The position numbers and the translations under genes were made by a program. A stretch of 47,865 nucleotides of DNA from a virus, in IMG/VR virus record IMGVR_UViG_3300024348_000073, positions 1 to 47,865 of that record. The stretch is one strand, 5' to 3'. The notes beneath the pieces are model-generated. The model was given only the letters and a program-made list of their open reading frames with translations. It made no database searches and had not been told where the DNA came from. Positions 17 to 38,218 of this stretch are shown piece by piece (position 1 is the stretch's first letter; the number at the start of each line of letters is the position of its first letter).

Positions 17-125
17 CTCATAGAGAGTTTAACACACAAACCCATACATTTTTACCAACTAATCACACAATTAACTATTATTAACGCTAAATATACGCTG
101 ATGATAGTGATTTATGAAGAACAGA

Positions 126-139
126 GCACCTTTCGGTGC
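126..139 (-). terminator. Hairpin after the minus-strand gene
   Basis: Read on the minus strand this is GCACC-GAAA-GGTGC, a 5-bp GC-rich stem closed by a GNRA tetraloop. It lies 17 bases past the stop codon of the minus-strand gene at 156-521. The following bases (CTCTGTTCTT on that strand) are only moderately T-rich, so this may be a weak terminator or a 3'-end stabilising hairpin. Confidence 0.5.
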
Positions 140-155
140 AATGCTCACTCACATA

Positions 156-521
156 TTAGCAGTCAAGCTTACCAAGGTAACGGAACGTTGACTTGTTGCC
201 TGACTTGTACTCAACAGGATCACCCTTGATGATAGAGTGCTTTTTCTCTGACATCTTAGTGAGTTGTTCTGGTGTAAAGTCATAGGCTCCGTTTAACGGA
301 ACAATTACTTGGTCACCTGAATCAACTTGCTTGAATGAACCATAAGTTTGAACGGCAATACCTGCAAACTTGGTTGTGATACTACCTGATCTCACAACAT
401 CATTGTGCTCTTGCACACTTGTTAACTCATCTTGGTCAACTTTCTTCTCAGAAAAGACTAACATAGTCTTACCTGATCTTGAAGACTTATAAGTCTCCAT
501 AAAAAACATTTCTTTAGACAT
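156..521 (-). CDS. Hypothetical protein, lone minus-strand gene (121 aa)
   Basis: I do not recognise this protein. It is a soluble, lysine-rich 121-residue product without membrane segments or clear motifs; the composition suggests a small mixed alpha/beta protein. The ATG at 519-521 follows an A/T-rich leader with a poly-A stretch, like other starts here, and a GNRA-loop hairpin lies downstream. It is the only gene on the minus strand and is divergent from everything to its right, so it probably belongs to a different transcriptional class (early or regulatory) from the rightward virion genes. Base composition is slightly less AT-rich than its neighbours. The reading is supported by a full-length open frame and the flanking signals, not by homology. 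Confidence 0.7.
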   Translation of the reverse strand: MSKEMFFMETYKSSRSGKTMLVFSEKKVDQDELTSVQEHNDVVRSGSITTKFAGIAVQTYGSFKQVDSGDQVIVPLNGAYDFTPEQLTKMSEKKHSIIKGDPVEYKSGNKSTFRYLGKLDC

Positions 522-755
522 TTTTTTACTTTTTTAATTAATAATTATTTTCTTTAGGGGGTAACCCCAGTCCAAGATTTTGTTAGGGAGTCTAAGTGTA
601 GGACCTTTTGAGAACGCCATACATACAAGAATCCCCTCTACGGACATGGGTATAGTTGACTCAGGTGTAAACGGGTGGGGGGTTTGTTAGGAAAATTTTT
701 ATTATTTTTGTATATTATACTATAGTATTTTTATAATTAAAACCTAAACTATTAA
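522..755. other. Divergent intergenic region
   Basis: This 234-base gap separates the leftward gene from the rightward block. It should hold two divergent promoters. Visible features are a short hairpin GGGG-GTAA-CCCC at 557-568, two copies of TTTGTTAGG (about 579-587 and 683-691), a patch near 600-690 that is richer in G and C than its surroundings, and the TTTTTGTATATTAT element at 705-718. I found no tRNA-like fold and no ORF longer than about 14 codons. A small RNA is possible but not supported. Confidence 0.5.
705..718 (+). promoter_or_regulatory. Putative promoter, TTTTTGTATATTAT element
   Basis: TTTTTGTATATTAT lies 37 bases before the ATG at 756. The same element, or a close variant, recurs before the genes at 19983, 25613, 28577 and 42256. 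TATATTAT resembles the Bacteroidota -7 box (TAnnTTTG), and a TTTG at 683-686 could be the -33 element, though that spacing (24 bases) is long. Confidence 0.5.
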
Positions 756-3700
756 ATGCATCATTATTATAATCCATATAGGCTTCTAAGTAAAGCTTTA
801 ACTAAACCTGGAACAATTAATAGATTTTTGAGTATTAAAAACAATCCTATTAACCAGAGTTTGAAGAGTAATGCTATATTTAATAATACTCAAGCATTTG
901 GTGAATCACAGTCTATAATTAATCAACTTAAGGGTTTGGTTAATAAAACAGACGAAGCTTCTCAGATAAAATTTATGAATCTTACAGGTCAACTTCAAAA
1001 ATTAAATCCTAAAGCTAGTTTTCATTTTAACACTGGGGAGAAAAAACAATATATACCTTTCACCGAAAGAGGTTATGATTCTAGCCTTAGAATAGGAGAT
1101 CCTAACCAATATAACGTACTTCGCAATGTATCAGATAATAAAACAGGACAATATGTTATGAAGAGTACTCCTCCACTTGCCACATATATGAAGGAGATGT
1201 ATCCTAATATGGTTGATGTTAACCTGACAGGAAGGACGCCATTAAATATGCACACTAACAGTGTTGGGACACCTTTCTATTCGGAGATGGGTGAAAATCT
1301 AAGACAATACGGAGATTTTGGTATGACAGTTCAAGGTTTAAAATCAACAGACAAAAATTCACTACTTGACTTTTCTATTAGTAGAGCTCCTTTTGGGAAA
1401 ATAGAAAGTAACTATAATGGTGAATTGGGTAATGAACATAATTTTCTTCAACATAACACCTCCCCATTCGTAATTAAATCTCCCTTATCAGAAAAATTAT
1501 CAGAAACTAACGGTATATGGTCCAGTTCTGCGCTCTCAGGTTTAAAAATGAATCCCGCTTTAATGGAGACTGATCCAAACTTTAAAGGTACGTTTATGAA
1601 ATTCATAAAGAAAGCAAATGAGATACCTGAAGAAAGATTTGCTAACGCAGCTAAAAATAGTAAGAAAGAATATAAGTCTTTAAGTAATCAAGAACTTGGA
1701 CCAATGTATAAGTTAGATTACAAATTATCAGATATATTTACTAAACCGGCAGAGTTTTATCCAATTCGTAAGAAAGAAGGTGGTGAATTATCTAAGAAAA
1801 AACATGGGGGTAATCATCTTGAGGGAACAAATTATAATCTATCAAAGAAAATGTATAATACAAAAGCGCAGAAGTATAGAAGGTTTAAAAAAGGCGGTCA
1901 GAAAGGAGATGGAAAACAAGGAGGTACTATTTATGATATGTATGATTTTGAAACTAACCAATATAAAAACGGTTGGAATCAAAATAATGCTTCTAACTGG
2001 AGAAGTACTGGGGGTTATAGTTTTAGAGATCTTGAGAATTATTATAATATGACACAAAAAACTGCTGAAGGAGTAGATATTATGGATAGATCTACATGGG
2101 AAGGTAAGAATTTTGGAGTAAATAAGGATTTCTCATTAACATATGGAGATAATAATGAACCAATGTTTAGTTGGTATCCTCAAGATAAAAATCAAGGTTA
2201 TGCAATGTCAAGAGATTTAGGACTTGCAAATTATTGGTATAAAGGAATTCCATATACTACTGAATCTGGATCAGAAGAAGATTTAAGATTAGGTAACGTA
2301 TCTGGTAATCAAATTAATTCTTTTCAAGAACAAATTAAAAATGTTAAAACAAAAGGAGAATTAAATGAAATAATAGAAAACTTCTCTGGTAATATAGATC
2401 AGCAGTCAATGATGTATATTATAAATCAAGCTAATCAAAACAATAATGTTGATATATCTCAAGAAGATATGCTAGATGTTTTAACTAAAGTAGATGAACA
2501 TAGAAATACTAATAAAGCTAATTACGAAACAACATATGTTAATGACGGACAAACATCTGCTCGTTCCATGTATATGCAGCCTGAAAACCAAAAAAAATGG
2601 TGGGATAATCACGTAGAACAATATGGAGAGGATAATTTTAAGAAAATGTTATCATCTGGAGAAATAACTCCACCATTCTATATGAATAATCCTTATAACT
2701 ATAATCAATATTCAATAGAGAATCCAAAAGCGGAACATGAAACACATTTTAGAAGTGCTACAACTGGAAAACTTGTACCTTTTAAACAAGAAAACATGCC
2801 AGCTTGGGCACAGGCTATAAACAATGTAGGTTCCTTTGTAACAAACGTTGATAACTATTTTAGAGATGAACGTGTAAATGTTGATGAAGATGGTCAAAAA
2901 TTAGTTCAGCCCACAGAACTCTGGGATCCAAATGCAAATAATGGAGAAGGGGGTTATGTTTCAATTACAAAGGGGACATTAACAAATAGGATTAATGAAG
3001 GTGAGAGAAATGAAAGAATTTACATAGGGGAAATTTTACAAGAAAAAGGACTAATTCCAGAAGGCGCTAGTAAAAAAGAAGCTGATTTAATAATAGATCA
3101 ATTTGTAGGAGGAAGTGGAAATTTACTTAATAAATATATAAATAATACAGCAACTAACAACCTTAATTTTAATGAGGGTGCTTTATCTACACCTACTTTT
3201 CAAGAATCTAGTAATTCAAACCCTAACCAAATAATAGATTCAAAAGAAGATGCTCTTAATTCAATGAAATTGCGTAGTCATTATCAAGGTGTTGATAATT
3301 TACCATCTGAGGTATATGGTAATAAAATGGGAACATACAACCCACAAATGAAAGGTACTTACTATGAAGATCCAGAAACAGGAGAGAATGTTTGGGTAGA
3401 TAATCCTGAGTATAATTCTGACTTTTCTAAAGGTATTAGAGGTGATTTTGAAGGTGGTAAGAAAAATATATTTGGTAATCGTATAGATAATTCAAGCCAT
3501 TATAAAACTGTAGGAGATCATTGGAAAGATAATAAATTTATGGGTAGTTTAAATTTAATGGGTATTAATGAAAATGATGTACAATATGCAATGGAAAATC
3601 CTATGCATACTTTTGGACCATTAGGAGCAGATGCAAAGATATTAACTTCTGCACTTCCAGCATTAGGTACAATGTGGAATACGTCTAAAACTAGAGCATT

Positions 3701-4091
3701 TATGAATACCCCATTTACATCAGCAGCAATAACTCCTTGGCAGGGATTAAACACATACTGGGGAGCTCAGATGGCATCACATATTCCAAAAAATTTAGAA
3801 GATAATAATTATGGAATGGCAGGATTAAATGCAGTTGTTGGATTAGGAACAGGAAAAGCAGCTTATAGGGGATTACAAAATAAAGTTAACCTTTTTCCTA
3901 AGTATACTAGTCCAAATACTAATATGATAGGAAATCTTAACAGAACAGATCAATTTAACAGGGCAGTTGGAGAATATAGTAATTTTAATAGAACTTTACC
4001 ATTATGGAGTTTAACAGGTAAATCTAATCAGATAGGAGAGTATAAAAATATGTTAAATATACTAAACAAAAAAAATATTAGCCTAAAATAA
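756..4091 (+). CDS. Large virion-type protein with GG motifs (1111 aa)
   Basis: The function is unknown. The N-terminal ~340 residues look like a folded domain I cannot name. Then come two basic Gly-Gly patches, KKEGGELSKKKHGG near residues 339-352 and FKKGGQKGDGKQGG at 377-390. A long Asn/Gln-rich, acidic middle follows. The C-terminal ~180 residues (about 930-1111) are rich in Ala, Gly, Met and Pro with weakly hydrophobic stretches that could touch membrane or pack in a capsid. The GG patches match those in the large proteins at 38218-47865 and in the 36-aa peptide at 18460, which suggests a shared role as internal (cargo or ejected) virion proteins. It lies far from those genes, upstream of phoH. 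The start is the first ATG after the promoter-like element at 705. Confidence 0.75.
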   Translation: MHHYYNPYRLLSKALTKPGTINRFLSIKNNPINQSLKSNAIFNNTQAFGESQSIINQLKGLVNKTDEASQIKFMNLTGQLQKLNPKASFHFNTGEKKQYIPFTERGYDSSLRIGDPNQYNVLRNVSDNKTGQYVMKSTPPLATYMKEMYPNMVDVNLTGRTPLNMHTNSVGTPFYSEMGENLRQYGDFGMTVQGLKSTDKNSLLDFSISRAPFGKIESNYNGELGNEHNFLQHNTSPFVIKSPLSEKLSETNGIWSSSALSGLKMNPALMETDPNFKGTFMKFIKKANEIPEERFANAAKNSKKEYKSLSNQELGPMYKLDYKLSDIFTKPAEFYPIRKKEGGELSKKKHGGNHLEGTNYNLSKKMYNTKAQKYRRFKKGGQKGDGKQGGTIYDMYDFETNQYKNGWNQNNASNWRSTGGYSFRDLENYYNMTQKTAEGVDIMDRSTWEGKNFGVNKDFSLTYGDNNEPMFSWYPQDKNQGYAMSRDLGLANYWYKGIPYTTESGSEEDLRLGNVSGNQINSFQEQIKNVKTKGELNEIIENFSGNIDQQSMMYIINQANQNNNVDISQEDMLDVLTKVDEHRNTNKANYETTYVNDGQTSARSMYMQPENQKKWWDNHVEQYGEDNFKKMLSSGEITPPFYMNNPYNYNQYSIENPKAEHETHFRSATTGKLVPFKQENMPAWAQAINNVGSFVTNVDNYFRDERVNVDEDGQKLVQPTELWDPNANNGEGGYVSITKGTLTNRINEGERNERIYIGEILQEKGLIPEGASKKEADLIIDQFVGGSGNLLNKYINNTATNNLNFNEGALSTPTFQESSNSNPNQIIDSKEDALNSMKLRSHYQGVDNLPSEVYGNKMGTYNPQMKGTYYEDPETGENVWVDNPEYNSDFSKGIRGDFEGGKKNIFGNRIDNSSHYKTVGDHWKDNKFMGSLNLMGINENDVQYAMENPMHTFGPLGADAKILTSALPALGTMWNTSKTRAFMNTPFTSAAITPWQGLNTYWGAQMASHIPKNLEDNNYGMAGLNAVVGLGTGKAAYRGLQNKVNLFPKYTSPNTNMIGNLNRTDQFNRAVGEYSNFNRTLPLWSLTGKSNQIGEYKNMLNILNKKNISLK

Positions 4092-30667: not shown

Positions 30668-33600
30668 ATGGCAAAGAAAAGAAGACAACAACAAAAACCT
30701 AAACCACAAGGTCCACCTAGTGTTATTACAAACACACCTGTTAAAGGTATGGTTAAGGATATACATGCTGGGTATCTTGATAATAAAAATTGGTCACATG
30801 CAAGAAATGCAATAAACAACTCTGTTGATGGTGACACAGGTGTTGTTGGTAATGAACCAGCAAACATTCTTTGTGCAAATATACCTTACACTATTATAGG
30901 GGGTATACATTTATATGGTGATAAATGGATAATATATTCTACAGACAATGAAGGAATACTCAATGATAAGTCTTCTGAGATAGGAGAATTTGATGACAGC
31001 ACTTGTACATATACAACATTAGTAAATGATGATTGTTTAAATTTTCACAAAGATCATTTAATTATAGGTGTAGCAAAAGAAAATTTTGATTGTTCTTGGC
31101 AAGTATATTGGGATGATGGTAACAATCCTTCTAGAACTCTTAATATAAATGACGTACCTTACTTACAAGAAATAGCACCATCTAGCACAGGTGCATGTAT
31201 TATATATCAAAATATTACACCATTACAATTAGATTGTGAAAAAATTAGATTAGCTCCTTTATTAGATACACCTAATATAGAGTTAACAAAAGCTGCAGAA
31301 GGAGGTCAACTACCTAATGGTATGTATCAAGTTTTTATTGCTTATTCAATAAATGATCAAATAGTTGGTGATTATTTGGGTGTATCTAATATGCAATCAT
31401 TATGGTCATATGATAATAATCAAGGTTCTTTGAATGTAAAAATATCTGAACTTGATAAAGAATTTGAATGGATGCAGGTTGTTGTTAGAACAAGAGTACA
31501 CAATGGTTTTGTTTCTTATGTTCTTGGTTATTATAGTACAGAAACTACAAATTTAAATATTGATTATCTAGATCCTAGTTTGACTAAAGTAAAATCATCT
31601 AGATTACTATTAAGAAATCCTGCATATGAAAAATCATCTGGTATGTTTGAGGTTAATGATTATTTAATTAGATCACAACCTGTAGAACAATTTGATTTTA
31701 ATTATCAACCTTTAGCAAACAATATTAAGACAGAATGGGTTTCTGCTAGTTATCCTGCAGAATATTATAAAGAAGGTGGTAACAAACCTACATTTTTAAG
31801 AGATGAAGTATACACATTCTTTATAAGATTTGTATACAACACAGGAGAAAAATCTAATGCTTATCACATACCTGGAAGAATAGCTACAGGAACTGAAGTA
31901 TCTTTAGATACAAGTGGAAACTCTTGGGATGGTGTAGCTAAAGAATTTAAAACAAAAAACACAGCATCATTTACTGCAACAACTAATGTAGTATTACCTG
32001 ACGGAGGTATTGTACAATCATATGGTGATATGGGATATTGGGAGTCAGGAGAAAAATATCCTGCTACTGATCCTGTTAGATACAACAATGGTAGCATAGA
32101 TTTATGTGGTATGCCTATTAGACATCATAAAATACCAAATGAAAACACACATCTTACAACTAGACTTTCTACAGATGGTGTAGCTAATGATGTTGGTGCA
32201 GGAACAACAACAGGAGCAGGTACAACACATGTACAAATAATAGGTGCACAATTTTCTAATATTGCTGCACCTTTAGATAATAATGGTGTTGTTATACCAA
32301 ACATAGTAGGTTATGAAATGCTTGTAGGTAATAGAGATGGTAACAAATCTATAATTGCTAAAGGTATTATTAGAAACATGATGTCATATGAAAGATATGA
32401 ACATAAAAGAAGTTTACAAGGATCTGATTTTGCACCACTTGGAGATGGTTTAGATTATACTACAGGTGGTGGTAATCAACCAATAACTATTACAGCAACT
32501 AATGGTGGAGGTCCAATTGAAGCATCATTACAAGATATAGCATCAGCTTCCCCTAACGCTTTAGGACAAACAGATATTCAATATGGACTTATGCCAAACT
32601 ATCCATACAATGATATGGGTATTGATCCTTACCTTATCTATAGAGGTAATGGTGATGTAAGAGCTTCAGAAGCTCCTTGGTTATCTGGTATTTTTGGAAC
32701 AGAACCTATTGAAAGTAATTGGATAACTGGATCAGGAAATATATTAAAAACAGCTGTACAAGATTCAACTGTTCATATGAGTCAAGATAATAGAGGTATG
32801 GCAGAATTTACTTTTGACCATCATACATTCCATTCTCCTGATTTAAACTTTACACACATGTATTTAGCTCCATCAGAGATGGTAGTTTATAAAACATTAG
32901 TAGGTAAAGCAGAAGGTAACTTTAGAAAGTCTGAAAAACATCCGGGAGCAAAACTATTAAAAAATAAAGCTGTATTAATTGCAGCTATTATTGGTGTTGG
33001 TTATGCTCTTAACCATATGAGGGGTAAAAGAAATGTAAAAATAAATACTGCAAGATCACAATCAACAGGGGAAACGATGGCTGTTGGATCTGGTATGACT
33101 CCTATGCCAGGTACTGGTACAGCTGCAGCAGCAGTAAACGTACTATTAAATTTACCTGGTGTTGTTGTAGGTGCAGTTGCAGACATGGCTTTTAACACTG
33201 TAGTAGATGTTGCTTCTGTATTTGGTGCTGGTAAGTTAGCAAGACAAATTGGTACTCCTATATACCAAATGATTGAAACTGGTACAACTGGACTTATGGC
33301 TGGTCATATTGGACCAAACAAAACTATTGAATACGTAGGTAGTGATTTTACAAGTGTACCTACATTGTTTTCAATGATAACAGGTATACTAACATTCTTA
33401 AATTATGTAGCTATAGGTGGAGATAAGATTATAGATCTTATTTTAAAAATGGTAGATTATCAAGACTATGCTTATAAATATAATAGTCATGGATTTTATG
33501 GAACATATGTACCTTTTGCTAGCGGTTCATGTGATAATGCATGGGCTGGGGCAGGTTCAGGATGTACTTCTGTTTATAGACATGAAATGAATTCAGCAAG

Positions 33601-36600
33601 ATATATCAAACCAGGTTTACAATATATGGGAGGTACAGCTATTAATAATTTACACAGACCTTCTACAGTTGTATTAAATACTAATACTAAAGTTGATTGT
33701 CCTGGAGCTTGGGGTAATCAAGATGATTCAAAATTTGTTATTGGAGGTGGTCAATGTGCTGGAGATGGTAATCATTCATTAAGCTGGTGGACTCCTACAG
33801 GTGTAGCAACATCTAATATATCAGCTCATTATGTAGGCTTAAAAGTTGACAATGATTCACAGTATGGTCAACTAGATAGTATTTTGTTTACACCAATGTC
33901 AAAGACTTTTAAATTTAAAACTACAAATTCTAACGGTTGGGATACTAATACTAGATTTAGTACAGGTCCTTTGTTTGGAGGAGATACTTATATAGCAAGG
34001 TATACAGAAAAGGTTACAATGCCTTTTTGGTATGACTTTATGAAAGACATGCCTGACGGAACTCCTTTTGATTATAGATATTATGCAAATGTACCTTTCC
34101 CAAGGTACTGGATGAATACAGAAAAATACCGTATGGATGAGTTTGTAAGACCTCTTACTTCTCTTACTTTTAATTTTGATGAAGCTTATCCGTCTGACAT
34201 GTATCATTTAGATCAACCTACAGAAGTTGATTGTGACGCAGGTCTTATTGGTAGTCAAGATGGCTCTGGAGGTTCTGTAGCAAATTATTATGAAGAAGCT
34301 AATTTTCATTTACAAGTAATTAAAGTTCCATCTTCTGATAATATAATGGCTACTTTAGATAATAGAATTAAAGCACCTACTTGGGAAATAGCAGGTGTTG
34401 GTAAATCTCAATTTATAGATCACCCTGGTGAAGAGTGTTCGTGGTATACAGCAGCAAATGTTGCTTGTCCTTCTGTAGCAACTCCTGCACAACCAGTTGA
34501 ACCACCAAGAAGAAGAGAAGTTGCAATTGGTATTCAAGGTAGACATAAAAGTCATAGACACTATACACCATTAATTGATTGGGGTGGTGGTAGTTGTATA
34601 ACTTCTGGTATGGATGACTGGTATGATTTTGCTAACCCTGGTAATGATGCAACTCCACCAAGAAAAACAGATATAGATGGACAGGTAAGGACATTTACAG
34701 CATTGTATAATTGGAATGAAGGTAAGTTTATGTATCCTGTAAAAAATGGATCACCTGGCGGTTCACGTGGTGATTGGAATAATACAAACACTGGTTCACA
34801 TCACGGTATTGTAGGTCATCCTAATTGGACGTTTGGTGATGGAACAGGGGGAGTATGTCATCATCAAGGTTATTGTATAGTTGGTGGTAGTATAAGTGAA
34901 ACTGCTAAATCACGTAGAGATTGTATGCTTGCAATAACAGACTCTAGTGGTAATCCTAATATTGGTGCAAATAACAAATGGGTAGATAGTTGTGTACCAG
35001 AAAATGATCCTAGTGATTTTATATTTTTTAGTAGATCACAAAGGAAAAAAGAAAAAGGATGGTTCTCAGGAACTATTAAATTAGATCAAGGATCATTTAA
35101 CATTAAAGGTAATGGTACGGATGCTGGTAATTCAAGTTCTGGTAGTTGGACAAGCTGTGATGGAGCTGGTGCAAAATTTTGTAGACCAGGTGATGAAAAT
35201 AGAAACAAAACTGCTTCTAGTCCTCTTCCAAAAATAGATCCAGACGGTTGTTATAGAAACGTACACATGTTAGTAACTAAAGGTGGTGCAGTTCCTAAAA
35301 CATCAGATATAGGTGGTGATCAAGATGGTTACAAAGACACTATGGATGACAACAGCAATAACCCTGTTAAAAAAACAGGAGGACTATTTGTTGAAAATGT
35401 AGGTTACATGTACACGCATGTAAGTGGTGTACAAGACTTTTTTGTTGAATCTGATATGAATTTATCTTTTAGAGATTGGGAAGACCAAGCTAGAAAAAGA
35501 CATTATGATTATTTAGAATACACTGACATCCATGAACTGTTTCATGTAGATCATATAAAAGGAGACAACTATTATAAATATGACAAGTCTCTAAATACAA
35601 GAAGATTTTGGTCTGCATCTTTTGGTAGAATACAAGAAAGATATTATGACCCTATTGTTTCAGAAACATGTTTTACAAAATATCCTAAAAGATTATTATA
35701 CTCTTTACCATCAGTAGGAGCTAGTACAAAAGAACTACAACAATTTAAAAGAGATGAAAAAGCTGATCATTGGAGAACATTTTTACCAGAAAATTTTAGA
35801 GACTTTAAATCAAGAGTAAACACAATTGTATCTACAGGTAAAACAGGAGCAATAATATTATTTCCTACATTATCACCACAAGTCTTTCAAGGAGTAGATG
35901 CATTAAAAATGTCTGACTCTGGTAACAAATTGGTAATTGGTGACGGAGGTTTGTTCAGTCAAGCTTTCCAAAGTATAACAAACTCTAATGTTTCTCATGA
36001 GTATGGTTCATGTGAGAGTGCAAGAAGCGCTGTACAAACACCTTCAGGTTTATTTTATGTATCACAAGCTCAAGGTAAAATATTCCAATACGCAGGTAAA
36101 GGTATACAAGCTATATCTGATATGGGAATGAAATGGTGGTTTAATAAATATTTACCATCACAATTACTTAAAGCATTTCCTAACATAGAAAATGCATCAA
36201 GAGCTGTAGATAACCCTGTAGTAGCAGCTGGTGTGCAATCTATATACGATCCTAACAATGACATTGTATATTTTGCAAAAAGAGATTATAGTCCACTAGC
36301 TGACAAGGTAGCTGATTTACAATATCTTCCTGATGGTAGATTTATGTATTCAGATGCTAGTATACAACAAAGTGTTGAGGTGCACCTTACAGATACAGAT
36401 TATTTTGAAGATGTATCTTGGACAGTTAGTTTTGATCCTAAATCTAAAGCTTGGATCTCATTCCACGACTGGCATCCTGAATTAGCATTTAATAGTATTA
36501 ACCATTTCTTAACAACTAAGAAAGGTATTTCTGATACACCTATATGTCCTCCTGGATATACTTTTAATGCAACATCTAACATGTGTGAAGTAATAGCACA

Positions 36601-38218
36601 AGGAAGTCAATTAGCAGAAGTAACTACAAGCACAATACTTGCAACAGAAACTACAACTGGTGCTGCGTGTAAACTAGATATAGTAATAGCTTTAGATGTT
36701 TCTGGTAGTAATAATGTTGATACATGTGCAGGAGCTAACGCTTTTGTTGCTAATTTCCTTACAAGCATAGATGATAAAATGGATGGATCTATAGGAACAG
36801 TTACAGGTTCATCTGATATACAAGTAGGTTTAGTTACATGGAGTACATTAGATAATGCTATTTGTGATAACGGTGGACAAGGTATAAATTCTCATGTAAG
36901 TAAAATGTCAACTGCATCAGCTACACTAAAAGCTTTTGCAGATAACAGTGGAGCTACCCAGATAATAGGAGTTAATAAAAACGGATCTGATTTCTATCAA
37001 GCAGCTATAGAATTTGGTATGGAAAACTTAAATGATTTTGCATCATCAACATTAGGAGACAGAAGTGCAGATCCTAATTATAGAAGAATACTTATAATTG
37101 TAACTGATGCAAGTAGTAGTAATGCATGTACTGCATCATTACCTCCTAATAGTCCTTGTGGTATTGATATGCCAAATGACGTTTGGTCTGTTGGTAGTAA
37201 TGCAGGAAATTCTAGTTTAGATACAGAAACATATGCTGTAGTTGTTGCACAAGGGTCAGGTACACCTTCAACAGGTTGGGAAGCAGCAACAGATTGTTTA
37301 GTGGAAACACCTTCAGTTAGTGGTACTCCAGGACCTAATCAATACGCAGGTACTATAACAACATTAGCATCAATAGGAACTGCAATTGCTGGAGATGTAT
37401 GTGATTACACTACATGTACTTGTCCAACAGGTATGACTTTAGTTGGTCCTTGCGATGGAGTTACAACTCCTTCATGTACAGGTACTACTTGTAGTTGTGC
37501 AGGTTTACCAGGCTATGGTACAAATGCTCTAGTTGAAACAGGGAAATGTGGATCTACAACTGATCCATTAATTTGTACTTGGAACTTTAGTGATTTTGTT
37601 GCACCTAATTATGATGTAGGTGGATTATGGAGACACAATGCAAGAACAGATAAGTATTCTAATTTTTATGGTATAGACTACCCTTGGGAAATAGATCTTC
37701 TAGAAACATCTGGTCAAACGGTAACTACTCTTAGAAGTATTGAGTATGGTTTAGAAGCTTATGTATACAAGAATGATGGTAGAGATAGATTCCATGTTTT
37801 AGATTTTAATTTTGACGAAGCTGAAATTTATAACTCAGAACAAACATCAGGATTACTTAAATTAGATCTTTCTCCTAAAAACAATGTTCCTTTAATAACT
37901 ACATACCCTATTATCAATGCAAATGATATAAGTATACTTTATAGTAAGGAAGAACAAAAATACAGATTTAATCAGTTCTGGGATGTTACAAATGACAGAG
38001 GAGAATTTTCTGGTGCACAAAACTCAATATATATAACAAAGCTAAATGGTTATATAAGAGATTTAAATTTAGCTAACATTAATCTCTTAAAGTCATCTTT
38101 TGAAAGAAAGAAATTTAGACACTATTATAATCATGTAGTATTAAGAAGGCTTGTATCTGATGACAAAAAAATGTTATTAAGATTGGAGAATACTAAACTT
38201 AACGCATCACAAAGATAA
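30668..38218 (+). CDS. Muzzle-type tail protein with inserted vWA domain (2516 aa)
   Basis: The Crassvirales muzzle plugs the tail nozzle. Support: VRFVYNTG-like and GEKSNAYHIPGR (~395-410), YKYNSHGFYG (~935-945), and a C-terminal block from ~2317 to the end (GLWRHNARTDKYSNFYGIDY ... YKNDGRDRFHVLDFNFDEA ... NSEQTSGLLKLDLSPKN ... KEEQKYRFNQFWDVTNDRG) that I recall as the family's most conserved region. Hydrophobic stretches lie at ~768-784, ~818-855 and ~900-935. Residues ~1955-2318 form an insertion: CPPGYTFN-type Cys motif, then a full vWA with D2010-x-S2012-x-S2014, S2107 and D2147, then a second Cys-rich stretch. It is longer than typical muzzles. The last stop overlaps the next start (TAATG). 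Confidence 0.85.
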   Translation: MAKKRRQQQKPKPQGPPSVITNTPVKGMVKDIHAGYLDNKNWSHARNAINNSVDGDTGVVGNEPANILCANIPYTIIGGIHLYGDKWIIYSTDNEGILNDKSSEIGEFDDSTCTYTTLVNDDCLNFHKDHLIIGVAKENFDCSWQVYWDDGNNPSRTLNINDVPYLQEIAPSSTGACIIYQNITPLQLDCEKIRLAPLLDTPNIELTKAAEGGQLPNGMYQVFIAYSINDQIVGDYLGVSNMQSLWSYDNNQGSLNVKISELDKEFEWMQVVVRTRVHNGFVSYVLGYYSTETTNLNIDYLDPSLTKVKSSRLLLRNPAYEKSSGMFEVNDYLIRSQPVEQFDFNYQPLANNIKTEWVSASYPAEYYKEGGNKPTFLRDEVYTFFIRFVYNTGEKSNAYHIPGRIATGTEVSLDTSGNSWDGVAKEFKTKNTASFTATTNVVLPDGGIVQSYGDMGYWESGEKYPATDPVRYNNGSIDLCGMPIRHHKIPNENTHLTTRLSTDGVANDVGAGTTTGAGTTHVQIIGAQFSNIAAPLDNNGVVIPNIVGYEMLVGNRDGNKSIIAKGIIRNMMSYERYEHKRSLQGSDFAPLGDGLDYTTGGGNQPITITATNGGGPIEASLQDIASASPNALGQTDIQYGLMPNYPYNDMGIDPYLIYRGNGDVRASEAPWLSGIFGTEPIESNWITGSGNILKTAVQDSTVHMSQDNRGMAEFTFDHHTFHSPDLNFTHMYLAPSEMVVYKTLVGKAEGNFRKSEKHPGAKLLKNKAVLIAAIIGVGYALNHMRGKRNVKINTARSQSTGETMAVGSGMTPMPGTGTAAAAVNVLLNLPGVVVGAVADMAFNTVVDVASVFGAGKLARQIGTPIYQMIETGTTGLMAGHIGPNKTIEYVGSDFTSVPTLFSMITGILTFLNYVAIGGDKIIDLILKMVDYQDYAYKYNSHGFYGTYVPFASGSCDNAWAGAGSGCTSVYRHEMNSARYIKPGLQYMGGTAINNLHRPSTVVLNTNTKVDCPGAWGNQDDSKFVIGGGQCAGDGNHSLSWWTPTGVATSNISAHYVGLKVDNDSQYGQLDSILFTPMSKTFKFKTTNSNGWDTNTRFSTGPLFGGDTYIARYTEKVTMPFWYDFMKDMPDGTPFDYRYYANVPFPRYWMNTEKYRMDEFVRPLTSLTFNFDEAYPSDMYHLDQPTEVDCDAGLIGSQDGSGGSVANYYEEANFHLQVIKVPSSDNIMATLDNRIKAPTWEIAGVGKSQFIDHPGEECSWYTAANVACPSVATPAQPVEPPRRREVAIGIQGRHKSHRHYTPLIDWGGGSCITSGMDDWYDFANPGNDATPPRKTDIDGQVRTFTALYNWNEGKFMYPVKNGSPGGSRGDWNNTNTGSHHGIVGHPNWTFGDGTGGVCHHQGYCIVGGSISETAKSRRDCMLAITDSSGNPNIGANNKWVDSCVPENDPSDFIFFSRSQRKKEKGWFSGTIKLDQGSFNIKGNGTDAGNSSSGSWTSCDGAGAKFCRPGDENRNKTASSPLPKIDPDGCYRNVHMLVTKGGAVPKTSDIGGDQDGYKDTMDDNSNNPVKKTGGLFVENVGYMYTHVSGVQDFFVESDMNLSFRDWEDQARKRHYDYLEYTDIHELFHVDHIKGDNYYKYDKSLNTRRFWSASFGRIQERYYDPIVSETCFTKYPKRLLYSLPSVGASTKELQQFKRDEKADHWRTFLPENFRDFKSRVNTIVSTGKTGAIILFPTLSPQVFQGVDALKMSDSGNKLVIGDGGLFSQAFQSITNSNVSHEYGSCESARSAVQTPSGLFYVSQAQGKIFQYAGKGIQAISDMGMKWWFNKYLPSQLLKAFPNIENASRAVDNPVVAAGVQSIYDPNNDIVYFAKRDYSPLADKVADLQYLPDGRFMYSDASIQQSVEVHLTDTDYFEDVSWTVSFDPKSKAWISFHDWHPELAFNSINHFLTTKKGISDTPICPPGYTFNATSNMCEVIAQGSQLAEVTTSTILATETTTGAACKLDIVIALDVSGSNNVDTCAGANAFVANFLTSIDDKMDGSIGTVTGSSDIQVGLVTWSTLDNAICDNGGQGINSHVSKMSTASATLKAFADNSGATQIIGVNKNGSDFYQAAIEFGMENLNDFASSTLGDRSADPNYRRILIIVTDASSSNACTASLPPNSPCGIDMPNDVWSVGSNAGNSSLDTETYAVVVAQGSGTPSTGWEAATDCLVETPSVSGTPGPNQYAGTITTLASIGTAIAGDVCDYTTCTCPTGMTLVGPCDGVTTPSCTGTTCSCAGLPGYGTNALVETGKCGSTTDPLICTWNFSDFVAPNYDVGGLWRHNARTDKYSNFYGIDYPWEIDLLETSGQTVTTLRSIEYGLEAYVYKNDGRDRFHVLDFNFDEAEIYNSEQTSGLLKLDLSPKNNVPLITTYPIINANDISILYSKEEQKYRFNQFWDVTNDRGEFSGAQNSIYITKLNGYIRDLNLANINLLKSSFERKKFRHYYNHVVLRRLVSDDKKMLLRLENTKLNASQR
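36530..37620 (+). other. vWA and Cys-rich insertion inside the muzzle
   Basis: The boundaries are where recognisable muzzle sequence stops (NHFLTTKKG, N1945) and resumes (GLWRHN, W2321). The inserted segment holds CPPGYTFNATSNMCE, a vWA domain with all MIDAS elements (DVSGS, S2107 in place of Thr, TD2147) and CPTGMTLVGPC plus CSC-type Cys clusters. The vWA is ~245 residues with the core strands LDIVIALDVSGS and ILIIVTDAS. The insertion keeps the frame on both sides, as expected of a tolerated loop insertion. Confidence 0.75.

Follow-up and report, generated by a model that had tools for sequence, protein, structure and literature searches.

The tail-tip (muzzle) protein of the crass-like phage analysed here carries an insert that is predicted to fold as a von Willebrand A (vWA) domain set between two Cys-rich frames, and the same slot is occupied in many related muzzles, by a vWA domain in most of them. 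The window, which is the whole stretch of DNA analysed, is 47,865 bases long and comprises the entire virus record. Our preferred reading, to which we assign a probability of roughly 0.6, is that the insert has a candidate role as an exchangeable cassette, seated in a muzzle hairpin, for receptor binding or adhesion. Host recognition by crass-like phages is poorly known and attention has been mostly on the tail fibres; an exchangeable adhesion slot would here be placed in the muzzle itself, which guards DNA exit. The occupant of the slot differs between near relatives, being a vWA domain, another domain, a protease-like domain, or the frame alone, and its content is a candidate host-range marker in a large and mostly uncultured group of phages.

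The muzzle gene (30668-38218, plus strand, as are the parts of it described below) is a single unbroken reading frame encoding 2516 aa. The protein passed the cut-off of Pfam crAss_MUZ (PF25731; E=2.5e-24, 86 bits, cut-off 27) and matched two virion structural families in a PHROG search. The gene lies within a packaging and virion structure block, with genes for the terminase, the portal, the major head protein, and further virion structural proteins upstream of it. For an AlphaFold model of residues 1560-2516 (pLDDT 65), the top PDB matches were the crAss001 muzzle chains 7qok_A (E=3.6e-4) and 7qol_P (E=4.5e-4), a fold match that covers these residues only. Its neighbourhood, like its sequence family and predicted fold, identifies the gene as that of a Crassvirales muzzle, of the same carrier protein family as gp44 of crAss001 (PDB 7QOK/7QOL; PF25731).

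The initial annotation placed an insert in this protein at 36530-37620, and we found it at 36521-37618 (residues 1952-2317), with muzzle sequence up to residue 1951 and again from about residue 2318. In a first comparison, seven viral-contig relatives (L001-L007) and a protein of Leptolyngbya phage Lbo-JY46 (L008) were aligned to the window. In six of the seven relatives (L002-L007) and Lbo-JY46, a few residues separate FLTTK, or the corresponding residues, from W(K/R/S)H, an interval that spans 366 residues in the window and 344 in L001. Because L002-L008 join the two flanks almost directly, residues 1952-2317 represent an insertion relative to these proteins. The muzzle portion upstream (residues 1563-1951; 35354-36520), which ends in INHFLTTK, was 40-44% identical to insert-free muzzles, and the portion downstream (residues 2318-2516; 37619-38215), which runs from LWRHN to the C-terminus, was 48-62% identical to them.

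Within the insert, the vWA domain extends over residues 2001-2245 (36668-37402), between C2001 and C2245. It is preceded by an N-side Cys-rich frame (residues 1952-2000; 36521-36667; CPPGYTFNATSNMCE) and followed by a C-side frame (residues 2246-2317; 37403-37618), the CPPGY/CPTGM segments being on both sides at the positions originally annotated. Twelve Cys residues were conserved in 36-37 of 37 aligned inserts: two in the N-side frame (C1960 and C1973, both in 37/37), the two that bracket the vWA, and eight in the C-side frame. Of 48 inserts, 11 had EGF-like Pfam matches in the frame.

An AlphaFold model of the insert, built with the 37 aligned inserts, had a mean pLDDT of 76 and showed the Rossmann-like alternation of strands and helices that characterises vWA domains. 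All 34 of its Foldseek matches to the PDB at E<=0.001 were vWA/I-domain proteins, with malaria TRAP, integrin beta-3, and complement C2a as the top matches. A profile of the 37 inserts searched against PDB sequences was closest to mussel PTMP1 (E=2.2e-6) and to the I domains of the alpha-I integrins alpha-1 (3.4e-5) and alpha-2, while PDB sequence searches returned nothing useful when the query was a single sequence or the muzzle profile. The window's own match to Pfam VWA (PF00092; residues 2004-2151) was weak (E=0.0016, 19.1 bits, cut-off 23.8); the cut-off was passed at the main slot by L022 (28.4 bits) and also by a muzzle with two vWAs, L048 (40.4 bits), and across 48 inserts Pfam VWA was found in 12 and VWA_2 in 13. 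The family HMM scored the window vWA at 148.6 bits, having been built with the window sequence included. Based on the models and profiles, we concluded that the insert has the predicted fold of a complete vWA domain lying between two parts of a muzzle; this agrees with the initial annotation, which had also proposed structure prediction as a way to check it.

The predicted metal-ion-dependent site is largely conserved, with the DxSxS motif where strand 1 ends and an Asp following strand 4. Its first part, DVSGS (residues 2010-2014; 36695-36709), retained D2010 and S2012 in 37/37 and S2014 in 36/37 of the aligned single-vWA inserts, and its third part, D2147 (37106-37108), was conserved in 36/37. 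DVSGS, S2107, and D2147 all lie where they had been annotated, but S2107 calls for a correction: at the second position (S2107-D2108; 36986-36991) the alignment column occupied by Thr in 35 of the 37 inserts reads D2108 in the window, with S2107 adjoining it. The metal-site residues are otherwise nearly invariant among inserts that are only 24-46% identical to that of the window, and the site is a specific candidate ligand-binding site that is open to testing.

Searching more widely with the muzzle alignment retained 80 loci, to which 33 were added by scanning with the insert pair; the census comprised 80 muzzles with clear boundaries after removal of duplicates. The slot held a vWA domain in 47 of these, was empty in 18, contained the Cys-rich frame only or a stub in six, and had other content in nine. 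Empty slots were 6-15 residues long in muzzles that retained the flanking motifs, and frame-only or stub slots were 44-168 residues long. Among the 51 muzzles that came from the muzzle-based scan, the corresponding counts were 33, 11, four, and three; these 51 are the best matches to the window, and the counts do not give proportions for crassviruses at large. The survey of relatives that had been proposed with the annotation therefore revealed both presence and absence. The region is an insertion relative to other muzzles, as claimed, since 18 of 80 are without it, but it is not private to this phage. Comparable regions do exist at this position in other muzzles, and because most of them are themselves vWA domains, the finding is widened to a clade and not refuted. 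No cultured relative of the vWA cassette was found among 50,697 phage records with the insert of L024 as query.

The remaining contents of the slot were varied. In L120 (8010-10019), a metzincin motif (HEMGHVVGAYH) and a Pfam Reprolysin_3 match above cut-off (E=1.4e-5) lie inside the same slot, and a protease at a phage tail would be notable. L044 (12510-13820), L111, L112, and L113 have in common a domain that differs from vWA and lies between the same Cys-rich frames. A PA14-like identity for this domain was an impression only and was set aside, as L044 had no Pfam match and the four-sequence profile had no PDB match. A second vWA was present at a site further upstream in the muzzle (about residues 1620-2180) in L022, L048, and L114, and L107 had two vWAs within one long insert. 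Among L022, L074, and L088, the upstream vWA was 98% identical and the main-slot vWA 77-89%. At the upstream site, roughly 315 residues (about 1738-2053), with DIYATFDTTS among them, are inserted in the muzzle of Cellulophaga phage phi17:2 (L125); the proposal of a vWA in this cultured phage was unsupported by profile comparison (probability 0.2%). In L004, whose muzzle slot is empty, a vWA (40 bits) was found in a 1246 aa fibre-like gene (86-3826) with sortilin/BNR repeats.

The cassette has evolved differently from the protein that carries it. Between the window and L001, the muzzle of which was also retrieved as L090, identity was 92% in the upstream flank and 95% in the downstream flank, 58% in the N-side frame, 74% in the C-side frame, and 32% in the vWA. 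The best BLAST vWA match of the window was that of L023, 31% identical and located in a backbone 56% identical, and for both the window and L001 the closest vWA match by BLAST sits in a distant backbone. To judge from these sequence comparisons, vWA content is decoupled from the muzzle backbone. For L033 and L039, dS was 0.20-0.26 in the flanks and 0.83-1.0 in the cassette, and because the latter is far above the former we concluded that the cassette was replaced by recombination. The other pairs showed faster amino-acid change at an unchanged synonymous distance: L047 and L023 had equal dS (0.15) and a five-fold difference in dN (0.064 vs 0.013), and for L022 and L074 dN/dS was 0.65 in the vWA and 0.04 in the C-terminus. 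Throughout, dN/dS in the vWA was below 1 (0.22-0.65). Length variation was largest in the loops predicted to lie on the metal side, the faces being assigned from vWA topology and not from coordinates. Two candidate explanations for the diversity were rejected. Positive selection on the metal-site face was not reflected in substitutions among close relatives (0.224 vs 0.224 per site in predicted top and bottom loops), and for a diversity-generating retroelement no reverse transcriptase (PF00078) was found in 21 virus records, including those of the window and L001, which may be incomplete.

Loss of the domain was also evident. L034 keeps the frame without the vWA in a backbone 93.8% identical to that of the vWA-bearing L024, and it differs from L035 by 669 nt in frame (BLAST). 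L045, also frame-only, is represented by a second contig, L117, which comes from another sample. On the backbone tree, which was made quickly and has several long branches, the frame-only label required six changes and the vWA label nine. The vWA can be lost and is therefore not essential. Repeated loss, together with the many insert lengths and occupants, might be taken to suggest an evolutionary by-product, that is, a tolerant loop that gathers domains with no selected function. We consider this very unlikely, as the metal-site residues and 12 Cys are retained in 36-37 of 37 inserts amid divergence, the reading frame is open in all 37, and dN/dS is below 1. A general environmental adhesin, with the vWA attaching the virion to mucus, polysaccharide, or particles and so raising the encounter rate without host specificity, in the manner of the Ig-like decorations of other phages, would also fit a dispensable domain, and the vWA on the fibre-like protein of L004 and the EGF-like matches in the frame are in keeping with it. 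Nevertheless, fast protein change and the replacement of cassettes between near-identical backbones suggest a partner that is specific and changing, and we regard an adhesin of this general kind as rather unlikely. The receptor-binding reading is favoured because of the cassette swapping, the faster protein evolution, the preserved metal site, and the alternative occupants, and the vWA in the fibre-like gene of L004, a phage with an empty muzzle slot, is in keeping with it as well. Against it stand the dN/dS values below 1 in the vWA, the even spread of substitutions over the two loop faces, the dispensability of the domain, and the window's lack of the usual metal-site Thr. The initial annotation had offered a receptor-binding or decoy module; these observations favour the former, and the decoy found no support.

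The location of the slot bears on how such a cassette might work. By profile alignment, gp44 residues 1044-1218 are opposite window residues 1699-1887, and the gp44 segment EFYAFKDGKMWEQF (about 1229-1242) was matched by eye to the FLTTK/LWRHN junction of the window, so that the slot corresponds to a hairpin at about gp44 1233-1238 in the C-terminal part of the muzzle. As this is outside the published IG1 (163-292) and the IG2 with crass domain (318-1021) of gp44 (PMC10172136), the slot should be in the propeller or ring-joining part, and on this alignment it is most likely a propeller hairpin. The suggested position, at the tip of the tail and the point of DNA exit, therefore has to be qualified, as the slot itself appears to be outside the distal crass domain. 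Since the insert is large, it would probably be exposed outwards, although a propeller or ring-joining location counts against an assured reach of the vWA to the host surface. Muzzle length variation through insertions in the crass and IG2 regions has been described with the crAss001 structure (PMC10172136); crAss001 has about five residues at the slot compared with 366 here, and the slot is outside the regions that were named as variable.

The same location could be read as that of a trigger, in which a ligand at the vWA metal site shifts the C-terminal helix and helps to open a gate in the same propeller. Consistent with this are a slot equivalent to a gp44 position outside IG1, IG2, and the crass domain, the published gate, which is a loop of propeller blade 4 (PMC10172136), and the profile matches to integrin I domains. 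However, empty and frame-only muzzles exist, so opening does not require a vWA, and a stalk of about 50 + 72 residues may decouple the domain; we consider a trigger improbable. By analogy, the muzzle would then resemble an alpha-I integrin, its vWA sensing the receptor and moving the propeller to open the gate, with the sensor swapped by recombination to change hosts, and this extension seems to us just as improbable. The structural parallel itself is striking. In alpha-1 and alpha-2 integrins, as in this muzzle, a beta-propeller protein carries an inserted vWA/I domain that has a DxSxS..D metal site. In the integrins, however, the I domain is between propeller blades 2 and 3 of the alpha subunit, whereas here it is in a hairpin of the muzzle C-terminal part; with a different loop and no heterodimer, the likeness is in how the two may work, and implies neither membership nor shared propeller ancestry.

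Under the preferred receptor-binding reading, the N- and C-side frames would form a Cys-rich stalk, probably disulfide-bonded, that holds the vWA, and the metal site would point away from the chain ends, and hence away from the muzzle, as in all vWA folds. Most likely, the vWA would bind a host-surface molecule through a metal ion and so set or strengthen host recognition. Each virion would have six copies of the cassette if the muzzle is hexameric as in crAss001, and phage specificity may be altered by recombinational cassette replacement together with fast change of the vWA. In the RrgA pilus-tip adhesin and malaria TRAP, the vWA is at an adhesive tip and is held by extra stalk domains. Both (PDB 2ww8 and 4f1j) were matched in our fold searches, but they are cellular adhesins and no homology of the stalks is known. 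Phage tail fibres and eCIS fibres likewise have receptor-binding domains that are exchangeable modules, and the known eCIS tail-fibre domains include VWA (PMC12923769); those modules are on fibres, whereas the slot described here is in the muzzle proper. A search of viral structures also found, in a Pseudomonas phage, a virion protein predicted to have a vWA-like fold.

In the literature consulted, viral vWA proteins are mainly CobT or MoxR partners, and an assembly co-chaperone would have a precedent in the MoxR-vWA pairs known from jumbo phages and archaeal viruses (PMC7824862, PMC7911831). Such proteins are separate and stand beside a MoxR ATPase, whereas the domain here forms part of a virion protein, can be dispensed with, and changes rapidly, so that this function is barely plausible. 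Insertions in muzzles in general and VWA in eCIS tail fibres are already known (PMC10172136, PMC12923769), while the open-access literature yielded no account of a muzzle with a vWA, nor any that joins crAssphage and von Willebrand, and the combination is apparently undescribed there.

Some further observations concern hosts and the rest of the muzzle. Muzzle genes were found on four MAG contigs (L127, L128, L129, and L130) assigned to Pseudomonadales, Campylobacteraceae, and Woesearchaeota; L127 carries a vWA, L128 the frame only, and L129 an empty slot. These host assignments were set aside, as the taxa are unrelated and the contigs are probably mis-binned phage contigs. Crassviruses are known from Bacteroidota. 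The related muzzle of L008 (PP438436.1, 82844-87808) is from a phage whose recorded host is the cyanobacterium Leptolyngbya boryana, which means either a wider host range or a host record that wants a check. Finally, the window and L001 share another long muzzle segment of about 400 residues (about 1155-1562; 34130-35353) that is mostly missing in L002-L008.
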